Source: Marisediminitalea oceani (lineage in GTDB: Bacteria; Pseudomonadota; Gammaproteobacteria; Enterobacterales; Alteromonadaceae). From it: DNA of 64,000 bases. The translations under genes were made by a program, and so were the position numbers. The notes under the pieces are model-generated. The model ran no database searches. It was not told the origin of the DNA and saw nothing but the letters and a program-made list of their open reading frames with translations. The stretch spans positions 1-64,000 of the forward strand of contig NZ_RCUA01000005.1 in assembly GCF_003731635.1 (NCBI RefSeq). The letters are read 5' to 3'. Positions 54,464-57,689 of this stretch are shown in pieces; position 1 is the first letter of the stretch, and each line of letters begins with the position of its first letter.

Positions 54464-55405
54464 ATGAGTGACACTGGTGCACATTCGCCATCACAACCGA
54501 TAACAGCAATGCCTATGGCCGGACTGGCGTATGCGCTGTGTGCAGTGATGATTTGGACCGGATTTATTTTGGTGTCCAAGGCCGGGGCCTTAGCAGCTCT
54601 GGCCACCCCGGATTTGATTATGGTGCGCTTTGGTACCGCGTTTGTATTGTTTTCTCCGTTTATCTGGCGACATCGTAACGTGATCTGCCAATGGCGTATG
54701 GCGGTGTTGGGTAGTATTGGCGGGCTCGCGTACGCCTTATCGGTGTTTACCGGTTTCGCTCATGCACCGGCTACCCATGCGGCGCTGTTACTACCAGGCC
54801 TGATGCCCATTATGATTGCGGTATTTGCTTATTTTGTTGCTGGCGAGCGGCATAAATTATCGTCCTGGCTGGGGATCGCGGTAAGCAGTCTGGGTATAGC
54901 TGCATTGTTAATCGAGACGCTGCTGGTTGATAATCGCTTTTGGTTTGGTGATATGAGCTTTATTGTTGCCTGTATGTGCTGGGGCGTGTTTACCGTTTTA
55001 TTGCGGCGCTGGCAGTTTGCCCCATGGCACGCCACGCTGGGGATCATCACGGTAACGACGCTGTTGTTTACGCCCGTTTATGTATTGTGGCTACCACATA
55101 ATCTCAGCGAAGCTTCCTGGCAAATGCTGGGGTTACAGGCTTTTTATCAGGGCGTAATGGCAACTACTATTCAGATGGTCCTGTATGGTCGGGCGGTACA
55201 CTTAATTGGCGCGACCCGAATGGGCGGCCTGATGGCGTTAGTACCGGTTTTTGCCAGTGTTCTGGCTGTGCCGTTATTTAACGAGCAATGGACGCCAGGG
55301 CTAACCATTGCGTTATTGCTAATCCTTGCCGGTACGCTGATCAGTAATTTTCCGGTTCGGTTGGTAATCGGGAAGTGGCGCCGAAAGTCATCCTGTACGG
55401 CGTAA
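54464..55405 (+). CDS. EamA/DMT-family transporter
   Basis: A 313-aa inner-membrane protein with about ten membrane segments and two EamA repeats; APATHAALLLPGLMPIMIAVFAYFVAGER and the matching late repeat TRMGGLMALVPVFASVLAVPLFNEQ are typical. Members export amino acids or metabolites; the substrate is unknown. It is divergent from the LysR gene at 53475. Confidence 0.9.
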   Translation: MSDTGAHSPSQPITAMPMAGLAYALCAVMIWTGFILVSKAGALAALATPDLIMVRFGTAFVLFSPFIWRHRNVICQWRMAVLGSIGGLAYALSVFTGFAHAPATHAALLLPGLMPIMIAVFAYFVAGERHKLSSWLGIAVSSLGIAALLIETLLVDNRFWFGDMSFIVACMCWGVFTVLLRRWQFAPWHATLGIITVTTLLFTPVYVLWLPHNLSEASWQMLGLQAFYQGVMATTIQMVLYGRAVHLIGATRMGGLMALVPVFASVLAVPLFNEQWTPGLTIALLLILAGTLISNFPVRLVIGKWRRKSSCTA

Positions 55406-55789
55406 TTTTGCGTGCAAATAAATGAAACTAAATGCATGAAAACATGATTACACGTCTTGGAAGGCTCTTGCCTGCATTGGTGTCATGCCTGGCAATGTAA
55501 GATGTTTATAGATTGTTGTCGGAGTCGCCGACAGCGACCAGAGGGTGTTGTGCGACACCCTCTGGACTCCCCGCAGCCCTTATCAGTGAAAAACGTCATC
55601 GTCCCTGACAGAACAAACCAGACCATCAATGACGGCACATCCATGTGCCGCATTGACTGAATCCTCATCCATGATGATTCTTCTGGTTTGTTATGTCTGT
55701 CAGTGACAATGACAACACTGAAGAAGGGCACACAACCTTTCTTTCTCCGATTTAAATTAATTAAAGCCTTGTTCAAGAAGAATGCAAAA
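55406..55789. ncRNA. intergenic candidate structured RNA or hairpin element
   Basis: 384 bp without a supported protein gene, holding several strong stems. TTGCC / GGCAA with inner GCAT / ATGC is at 55468-55495. TGTCGG / CCGACA is at 55517-55533. An 11-bp perfect stem CCAGAGGGTGT / ACACCCTCTGG is at 55538-55565. A three-way junction occupies 55606-55702: outer stem 55606-55622 with 55682-55702 (17 bp, four bulged bases), branch A 55626-55656 (14 bp with one bulged base) and branch B 55659-55680 (9 bp, one mismatch). Both branch tips carry CATCCATG. A terminator follows. It may be an RNA gene, a 3'-UTR module or an intergenic repeat. Confidence 0.6.
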
Positions 55790-55817
55790 CCACCTTCTTT
55801 GGAAGGTGGCTTTTTTA
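55790..55817. terminator. rho-independent terminator
   Basis: CCACCTTC / GAAGGTGG with a TTTG loop and six T on the plus strand closes the structured region; on the minus strand it also lies just after the M2 peptidase stop, with a short T run, so it is bidirectional. Confidence 0.9.
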
Positions 55818-55856: not shown

Positions 55857-57689
55857 TTACCAGCCACACTGACGGTCTTTATTTTGCTCATCGAGCCAGG
55901 TTTTAAGTGGCTGGAAGTAATTAACAATGGTGCTTGCGTCCATTTTATCCGTGCCGGTTAGCGTTTGTAGTGCTTCCTGCCAGGGTTTACTCTGTCCCAT
56001 TTCCAGCATGGCATTAAGGGCTTCACCCGCTTCCTCACTGCCATAAATAGAGCAGCGGTTTAACGGACCTTCATCGCCTGCCACATCACACAACGCCTTA
56101 TGGAACTGGAATTGCAGTATGTGGGCAAGGAAATAACGGGTGTACGGCACATTGGCCGGAACATGATATTTAGCGCCAGGATCAAAGGCGTTAGTATCAC
56201 GAGCTACCGGCGCCATTACACCCTGATATTTCTCGCGTAAATTCCACCATAGTTCGTTGTAATCATCCGGACCGACTTCGCCGGCCATGACTTTCCAGCG
56301 CCATTGATCAACCATTAAACCAAACGGAATAAAGGCTATTTTATCCAGCGCTGTTTGTAACAGCATGCCGACGTCATTGGAAGGATCGGGGATTTCATCA
56401 ATCAGACCAATTTCTTTTAAGTACTTTGGCGTAATGGACAGGGCAATGGTATCGCCAATGGCTTCATGGAAACCATCGTTTGCTGAACCGCGATACAGCA
56501 GTGGTTCCTGGTTGTAGGCGCGCTGGTAATAGTTGTGGCCCAGTTCGTGGTGAATTACGTTAAACTCTTCGCCGGTAATCTGGATACACATCTTAATGCG
56601 TAAATCGTCTTTATCGTCAACATTCCAGGCCGAAGCATGGCATTGCACATCGCGATCGGCAGGTTTGCTGAACTGAGAGCGTTCCCAGAATGTTTCTGGT
56701 AATTGTTCAAAGCCCAGTGAGGAGAAGAACGATTCAGCCTGTTTAACCATTTTAATTTCATCGTAGCCCTGATCGCGCAATGCACCGGTAACGTCAGGCA
56801 CTTCCATCGGCTCATCGGGTTTTACTAAATCGTAAATATTGCCCCAGCTCTGCGCCCACATATTGCCCAGCAAATGAGCCGGAATAGGCTTATCCTGCGG
56901 CACAATATCTTCACCGTAGTAATCGCCGAGCTCAGCACGGACATGGCAGTGCAGGGCATCATACAAGGGCTTCACCTGACCCCATAAGCGGTCCAGTTCA
57001 ACCGGGAAGTCATCGGCAGGCATATCATATTTGCTGCGCCATAACTCGCTGACATTAGCAAAGCCCAGTTCTGCCGCACCTTCATTAGCGATAACCACCT
57101 GTTCGGCATACAAGTCTTTCATAGGGACAGACACTTCGCGCCAGCCTTGCCAGTATTCCAGCAGCAGATCGGCTTCGCGGGAAGTCGCCATTTCTGCACT
57201 CATATCGACCAGGCCGATACAGTCTCCCTCTGAACGGCAGTACTTGCCTTTACCGTACATGCCATCGAGCTCAGAGCTTATTTGCGCCAGACGCTCAGAT
57301 TTCATCGGGCTTGCCGGAGGTGGCATAGTCAGGGAAGTGCGCATGAGATCCAGTTTACGGCGCAGATCTGCATCTACTTCCACATCATTAAACTCTGCTG
57401 CCTGCTTGGCCAGCTCAGATGCACGGTTTGCATAGAGTTCAGAAATATAGGCGTTCACCGTGGCCGTATCTTCATTGATATTGGTTGCATATAACCACGC
57501 GGCCTTGGCTGCCGGTACCTGCATCTTTTCCATTTCACGCTGGGCTGATTCAACAAACATTGCCGCATCTTCGGCAGTATACATCGGCGTTGTTTCGGTG
57601 GTTTCCTGTGGTGGTTCGCTGGCTGGCTGACAACCGCTAAGAGCGGCAACCAGGCCCAGTGAAACCAAAGAAAGACGGGTCATTTTCAT
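55857..57689 (-). CDS. M2-family peptidyl-dipeptidase (ACE-like) lipoprotein
   Basis: A 610-aa zinc peptidyl-dipeptidase related to angiotensin-converting enzyme. The signal peptide ends LSGC (lipobox). The zinc site is HELGH at 381-385 (VIHHELGHNYYQRA), with the third ligand Glu expected in the following FHEAIGDT. Such proteins remove C-terminal dipeptides in the periplasm or on the outer membrane. It ends at a bidirectional terminator; no operon partner. Confidence 0.94.
   Translation of the reverse strand: MKMTRLSLVSLGLVAALSGCQPASEPPQETTETTPMYTAEDAAMFVESAQREMEKMQVPAAKAAWLYATNINEDTATVNAYISELYANRASELAKQAAEFNDVEVDADLRRKLDLMRTSLTMPPPASPMKSERLAQISSELDGMYGKGKYCRSEGDCIGLVDMSAEMATSREADLLLEYWQGWREVSVPMKDLYAEQVVIANEGAAELGFANVSELWRSKYDMPADDFPVELDRLWGQVKPLYDALHCHVRAELGDYYGEDIVPQDKPIPAHLLGNMWAQSWGNIYDLVKPDEPMEVPDVTGALRDQGYDEIKMVKQAESFFSSLGFEQLPETFWERSQFSKPADRDVQCHASAWNVDDKDDLRIKMCIQITGEEFNVIHHELGHNYYQRAYNQEPLLYRGSANDGFHEAIGDTIALSITPKYLKEIGLIDEIPDPSNDVGMLLQTALDKIAFIPFGLMVDQWRWKVMAGEVGPDDYNELWWNLREKYQGVMAPVARDTNAFDPGAKYHVPANVPYTRYFLAHILQFQFHKALCDVAGDEGPLNRCSIYGSEEAGEALNAMLEMGQSKPWQEALQTLTGTDKMDASTIVNYFQPLKTWLDEQNKDRQCGW

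Follow-up and report, generated by a model that had tools for sequence, protein, structure and literature searches.

The window (the whole 64-kb stretch of DNA that was analysed) contains, between an EamA-family transporter gene and an M2 peptidase gene, a densely paired spacer that raises the question of what kind of element it holds and whether its hairpins act as RNA or as DNA. The two genes converge, their stop codons lying at 55405 (EamA) and 55857 (M2 peptidase). The sequence-only reading had described positions 55406-55817 as a gene-free stretch of 412 bp, and this was borne out: no supported gene was found in the spacer, the sole open reading frame (97 aa, 55483-55776, minus strand) being without a Pfam match. 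The features of the locus are as follows.

54464-55405, plus strand: EamA-family transporter gene (Pfam PF00892), convergent neighbour
about 55491-55761, minus strand: whole repeat unit of ~270 bp with approximate ends (BLAST and alignment of same-genome copies)
55538-55565, minus strand: 11-bp perfect hairpin, part of the repeat (inverted-repeat search, copy alignment)
55586-55722, minus strand: TwoAYGGAY core, comprising outer stem, three-way junction and two hairpins (cmscan)
55682-55703, minus strand: outer stem, 5' arm in RNA order, with a 4-nt bulge (fold; inverted repeat I3)
55659-55680, minus strand: first hairpin in RNA order, with motif CATGGATG at 55666-55673 (sequence, fold)
55625-55657, minus strand: second hairpin, with motif CATGGATG at 55638-55645 (sequence, fold)
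55605-55622, minus strand: outer stem, 3' arm (fold; inverted repeat I3)
55786-55813, both strands: terminator-like hairpin between the repeat and the M2 gene (consensus scan)
55857-57689, minus strand: M2 peptidase gene (Pfam PF01401), on the same strand as the TwoAYGGAY element and upstream of it

Folding of the 412-nt stretch yielded z = -8.4 on the plus strand and z = -10.0 on the minus strand, with none of 100 shuffles folding as well on either strand, and the three-way junction alone (55604-55704, minus strand) folded at -50 kcal/mol with z = -7.2. With z-values of -7 to -10, the claim that pairing lies far above that of a random spacer holds. The proposed three-way junction is present with different stem lengths: its outer stem has 18 pairs (not 17), interrupted by the 4-nt bulge, and its hairpins have 14 pairs (one bulge) and 8 pairs (a 1x1 internal loop) instead of 14 and 9. 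Both hairpins carry the same tip, as had been stated (CATCCATG on the plus strand, CATGGATG on the minus strand), and the 11-bp perfect hairpin was recovered at its place in the repeat. A free position in the loop of the second hairpin shows a T to G change in other copies. The terminator said to follow the stems corresponds to the terminator-like hairpin at 55786-55813, which is found on both strands and lies outside the repeat. One promoter-like site was found in the spacer by consensus scan, against 0.7 expected.

The search with cmscan that the sequence-only reading proposed names the family that it had left unnamed. When the window was compared with 4227 Rfam families, two matches reached curated cut-offs. 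One is a tRNA gene truncated by the start of the window (positions 1-53). The other is TwoAYGGAY (RF01731, clan CL00106), which matches 55586-55722 on the minus strand over the full model (1-168) with 46.3 bits, the gathering cut-off being 43 bits. Both loops read AUGGAU and lie inside the outer stem, as the two AYGGAY loops of the family do. The feature is thus a new copy of the known family TwoAYGGAY, and the reading as a structured RNA is sustained by this match above the curated cut-off and by stems that covary strongly in family relatives. The strand had been misjudged: the hairpins were read on the plus strand, a reading that we rejected because the Rfam match and the GGA motif sit on the minus strand. 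Other Rfam matches on the spacer, psRNA14 and Phe_leader among them, were also discarded, all being far under their own cut-offs. In 2010 the discoverers' table entered TwoAYGGAY as a probable RNA, with cis-regulation and a riboswitch role both marked improbable (PMC2864571), and a 2014 paper proposed CsrA binding or sequestration from motif matches (PMC4333381). We found no proven function in the open-licence literature searched.

The suggestion of a repeated hairpin element proved correct, the element being a dispersed repeat. A BLAST search of the host genome with the spacer returned 13 places: the window itself, four other near-full copies (87-91% identity), one shorter copy (85%) and seven partial ones. 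Copies align across ~270 bp, including a short closing stem that is imperfect and of ~10 positions in the window copy (by eye). The 11-bp hairpin takes a longer form in two copies and is absent from the short copy. RF01731 matched the host genome seven times at E <= 0.001, five times over the cut-off. Of the two matches below it, DNA similarity confirms one as a copy; the other (C2, 36.7 bits) looks spurious and was rejected as a copy, having a single motif tip only. Three further places in the host genome share the repeat ends and have a different middle (L063:5030-5300, L064:4305-4570 and L061:2776-2967); none of these variant repeats has an Rfam match, and a CGCCATGGATGGCG hairpin is present in two of the three. 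The plasmid and phage collections searched gave no match.

Comparison of the same locus among relatives revealed presence and absence of the repeat. The M2 peptidase gene occurs in 39 of 59 genomes of the genus, and 30 of its loci, including that of the window, were read. EamA adjoins the M2 peptidase gene in five relatives, of which one (G023) carries the repeat and four lack it; spacers without the repeat measure under 100 bp, against 451 in the window. The expectation that homologous spacers in relatives keep the stems consequently stands for one of the five. Three of the relatives without the repeat are at least as close to the window as G023 is, and alongside the repeat the filled allele shows additional differences of roughly 60 and 100 bp (by eye), which together indicate that the event was not a clean insertion or excision. 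Across related genomes, 12 of 60 (host included) have an RF01731 match, six over the cut-off. These and the other multi-genome counts are lower bounds, since the scans used fast filters that lose weak matches and that missed G023, whose copy was found with fuller scoring.

Copies also form arrays, spaced ~410-630 bp apart, in two genomes of the same genus (G009, G004) and one of the same order (G045). A further tandem array, in the relative G032 (L056:2233-4472), has units 327 and 464 bp apart together with inverted sub-repeats. An explanation of the 600-bp arrays as integron cassettes was weighed and rejected, only short reading frames, often repeated with the unit, being seen between copies by inspection. 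When GGA hairpins were counted per whole spacer or array, none of 13 regions rose above the maximum of its own 200 shuffles; in G009 the long arrays lay near the shuffle mean. Since these counts are no better than those of shuffles, we discarded the idea that the arrays as wholes are CsrB-like.

The distribution of the family extends well beyond the order. A pattern scan of named genomes returned at least 120 stretches, and of 36 such loci scanned with Rfam, six passed the cut-off, coming from genomes of Lachnospiraceae, Ruminiclostridium, a further member of the Clostridia, Pseudoalteromonas, Lysobacter and Pseudomonas. Loci of similar plan (by eye) form a large group that includes Stenotrophomonas, Xanthomonas, Saccharospirillum, Shewanella and Alishewanella; its scanned members (L101, L153 and L125 among them) fall below the RF01731 cut-off. 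Loci of Stenotrophomonas, Xanthomonas and Alishewanella (L101, L116, L131, L153, L125) have a common second hairpin near AGCCCCCATGGATGGGTT and copy-specific arms. In Shewanella spacers (L118:531-618, L103, L202), TACATGGATGTA hairpins appear just after a terminator-like hairpin (by eye), and they are repeated in L118 and L103. Among the Lachnospiraceae (the family of G083), 39 of 250 genomes have RF01731 matches, 37 of them over the cut-off, and single genomes hold up to 50 matches with fuller scoring. Neighbouring copies there often stand head-to-head, minus then plus, within a few hundred bp (L264, L276, L318, L319, L321). G083 itself (L104) has seven csrA-family matches and 32 TwoAYGGAY matches.

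Conservation within the element is concentrated in its loops. Among 26 copies drawn from the genus and order of the window (mean identity 48%), eight of nine invariant columns fall in two CANGGAYG motifs, a figure favoured by the use of a motif-containing model to find the copies. CA(N)GGA(N)G persists in the loops while the stems covary almost freely. Of 113 Lachnospiraceae elements, 106 retain GGA in one loop and 105 in the other (7 and 8 lack it), and the base before it may be any letter or missing. The two GGA triplets are 28 nt apart in the window and 28-30 nt apart in 83 of 99 counted Lachnospiraceae pairs. As given in PMC7652899, the CsrA site selected by SELEX is RUACARGGAUGU with ACA and GGA invariant, the repeats of CsrB are CAGGA(U/A/C)G, CsrA bridges sites 10-63 nt apart, and very stable stems are possibly disadvantageous for CsrA. 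The window copy presents GGA in hairpin loops in an ANGGA context, and its spacing of 28 nt falls within that bridging range; the base before GGA is U in the window versus the purine preferred in SELEX.

Carriers of the element tend to have csrA. The host genome encodes CsrA (PF02599, 88.8 bits), and csrA was found in all 18 genomes hand-picked from the pattern loci; Rfam confirms a locus in six of these genomes. With carrier and csrA lists compared by eye and kinship ignored, csrA is present in 38 of 39 Lachnospiraceae carriers versus 90 of 211 other genomes (Fisher 1e-11), the carrier without it being G268, a 1.6-Mb genome. In a Clostridia sample of 341 genomes (the class of G084, a Ruminiclostridium and so taken as Clostridia), the corresponding figures are 27 of 32 carriers, three of which are also in the Lachnospiraceae sample, versus 84 of 309 others (Fisher 3e-10, kinship ignored). 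Five Clostridia carriers have no csrA match (G525, G566, G605, G623, G665), and 19 of the 23 carriers over the Rfam cut-off have csrA. The association may simply reflect that csrA tracks motile clades.

We therefore weigh most heavily the reading that the window element is a mobile, repeat-borne pair of predicted CsrA-binding RNA hairpins, with a probability of about one half. The core would be transcribed on the minus strand, here possibly by read-through of the M2 peptidase gene into its 3'-UTR, and the transcribed core would form a rigid three-way junction displaying two GGA loops of the CsrA-site type. One CsrA dimer would then bridge both loops, and each copy would act as a movable binding site for CsrA, titrating the regulator or altering the stability of its host transcript. 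Transcription of the window copy, its binding of CsrA and any effect on CsrA are steps that we infer. Counting against this reading are the missing promoter signal, the mixed orientation to genes, the rarity of G.U pairs and the near-perfect outer arms described below, as well as the U before GGA, the very stable stems, the carriers that have no csrA match and the loops that lack GGA.

The main and serious rival is a hairpin repeat (REP/BIME- or MITE-like) that works at the level of DNA alone, an account we hold to be possible though the less favoured. The hairpins would act as folded single-stranded DNA, serving a transposase or arm-to-arm repair, and the conserved loops would be protein contacts in DNA, with RNA incidental. 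The dispersed, tandem or head-to-head arrangement of the copies suits this account. So does the transposon-like setting of the Lachnospiraceae elements. The flanks of the 113 Lachnospiraceae cores are mutually complementary, with a longest perfect run of 17.7 bp on average versus 7.4 for shuffled partners and perfect arms of up to 43 bp. With up to 3 mismatches allowed, a 21-bp repeat was counted 75 times in G276 and 15 in G222, its reversed control pattern not at all. In the loci examined in these two genomes, 29 distinct elements are delimited by inverted pairs of this repeat: 20 of 305-316 bp have the two core GGA motifs, and nine shorter ones (73-209 bp) have one at most. In twelve of the 29 the flanks share a direct match of 7-8 bp, and several matches are copy-specific (ctactag, ctactat, cgtatag, tgtatag) beside the commoner ctataag. 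The longest flank match averages 5.5 versus 3.9 for shuffled partners (200 shuffles, highest 4.6), a control that accounts in part for target preference, the preferred target resembling ctataag. We read these 7-bp duplications as the mark of transposition, and together with the inverted repeats they indicate that the element rides in a MITE in these two Lachnospiraceae genomes. However, no inverted-repeat pair of transposon length was seen in the lists of G276 and G222 (read by eye), which speaks against the DNA-only account. We infer transposition for the subfamily of the window copy as well; no target duplication was recognised there by eye, its repeat ends being uncertain.

The pattern of substitutions in the stems bears on both readings. 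Our own covariance model (R2) gave 113 matches in 100 Lachnospiraceae loci and 31 matches in 57 loci elsewhere, including two host-genome copies. Covarying stem pairs, which the earlier reading had suggested seeking in relatives, were found: in the Lachnospiraceae, 34 of 38 pairs changed on both sides, 95.6% of 4192 cells were paired, and the covariation score was 0.726 versus 0.175 when shuffled and at most 0.102 when slid. In the other set 91.0% of 874 cells were paired, both alignments being structure-fitted. G.U cells outnumber A.C cells by 67 to 42 of 4192 in Lachnospiraceae and by 22 to 19 of 874 in the other set. When pair events were counted once per genome (A3, whose core count omits two loop-adjacent pairs) or once per locus (A4, which omits none), the ratio of G.U to A.C was 18:8 and 14:5 in the core (p 0.08 and 0.06) and 16:12 and 6:11 in the outer stem. 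A count by regular expression gave 25:14, or 20:5 without the pattern loci. An earlier hand count (11 against 16), in which A.C appeared at least as common as G.U and which had been taken as a sign of a DNA element, was weakened by these larger counts and further by the split by stem. The excess of G.U over A.C in the core favours RNA, as a hint only; the share of G.U lies below that expected of an RNA, in a comparison that holds no control RNA family. The outer arms are nearly perfect in Watson-Crick pairing, with near-symmetric mismatches (G.U 31, A.C 21, others 20, in 97 of 113 elements), and thus suit DNA inverted repeats. The 113 Lachnospiraceae elements also show no upstream promoter signal (8.27 versus 8.68 downstream and 8.32 downstream reversed), as a DNA repeat would predict. 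Against the DNA-only account stand the match of the motif to the CsrA site, including a free position that is likewise free, the csrA association and the core excess of G.U.

A third explanation, which we consider unlikely, is a 3'-end element acting without CsrA: read-through from convergent genes would give a folded RNA that stabilises transcripts or terminates them. REPs protect or end transcripts in this way. In the host genome, eight of ten places (six with the core, four variants) lie between convergent genes, against 11 of 54 gaps in the window, and the bidirectional terminator-like hairpin stands alongside the repeat. A bias towards 3'-UTR sense in the host genome was dismissed as a signal, because convergent sites yield a 3'-UTR in either orientation. 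The 3'-UTR regulator that the sequence-only reading had offered among its options may still apply. This explanation, however, leaves the conservation of the motif and the csrA association unaccounted for, and the bias in gene context is absent in Lachnospiraceae, where orientation to genes is mixed (n = 107: ++ 29, -- 37, +- 25, -+ 16). Mixed orientation also implies that many copies are not read in the GGA sense from neighbouring genes.

It is very improbable that the element is an independent small RNA gene of the CsrB kind, equipped with a promoter and terminator of its own. The GGA hairpins and the sequestration proposal in PMC4333381 speak for such a gene, but consensus scans revealed neither enrichment of promoters nor T-runs downstream of the 113 elements (23 of 113 versus 50 upstream), single genomes hold up to 50 matches, and each element has only two strong GGA hairpins. 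The idea of a cis-regulatory 5' leader, suggested by the Rfam type (Cis-reg), can be set aside, given that the gene downstream of the window element is convergent, that a co-oriented downstream gene is found for only 45 of 107 Lachnospiraceae elements, and that Cis-reg is a database label and not a defining feature, the discoverers' table itself marking cis-regulation as probably absent (PMC2864571).

Beyond the window, we tentatively propose that TwoAYGGAY, rather than being an ordinary RNA gene, is cargo of transposable elements that spread paired CsrA-binding hairpins in Clostridia and Gammaproteobacteria. Selfish repeats would thereby titrate or rewire a global regulator, and covariation in the long arms would arise partly at the DNA level, by arms being copied from each other, with only the core kept as RNA. 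Were copies shown to be transposon-borne CsrA sites, TwoAYGGAY would gain a function and its Rfam type would be corrected; mobile elements would be feeding on, or rewiring, a global post-transcriptional regulator. The proposal also carries a warning: in some RNA families, part of the covariation of the stems may originate in inverted repeats of the DNA. The CsrA idea is already published; in the open-licence literature we found neither the MITE setting nor the csrA association of TwoAYGGAY in print.

Comparison with known systems places the element between several of them. The window copy resembles other members of TwoAYGGAY in having two hairpins with AYGGAY loops within an outer stem and a score above the gathering cut-off, whereas its score is modest, it lies within a 270-bp repeat and the Cis-reg label does not fit it. 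Like the CsrB/RsmZ RNAs, TwoAYGGAY presents GGA in hairpin loops in an ANGGA context, with paired sites at bridging distance, but it has two strong sites per element and no promoter of its own that could be seen, and it is mobile, in many dispersed copies. With REP/BIME elements and MITEs the repeat shares its nature as dispersed intergenic inverted repeats that are tandem or head-to-head and present or absent between relatives, and the Lachnospiraceae elements further share with MITEs the terminal repeats and target duplications observed in two genomes. Unlike REP/BIME elements and MITEs, it holds mid-element a conserved three-way junction with conserved GGA loops.
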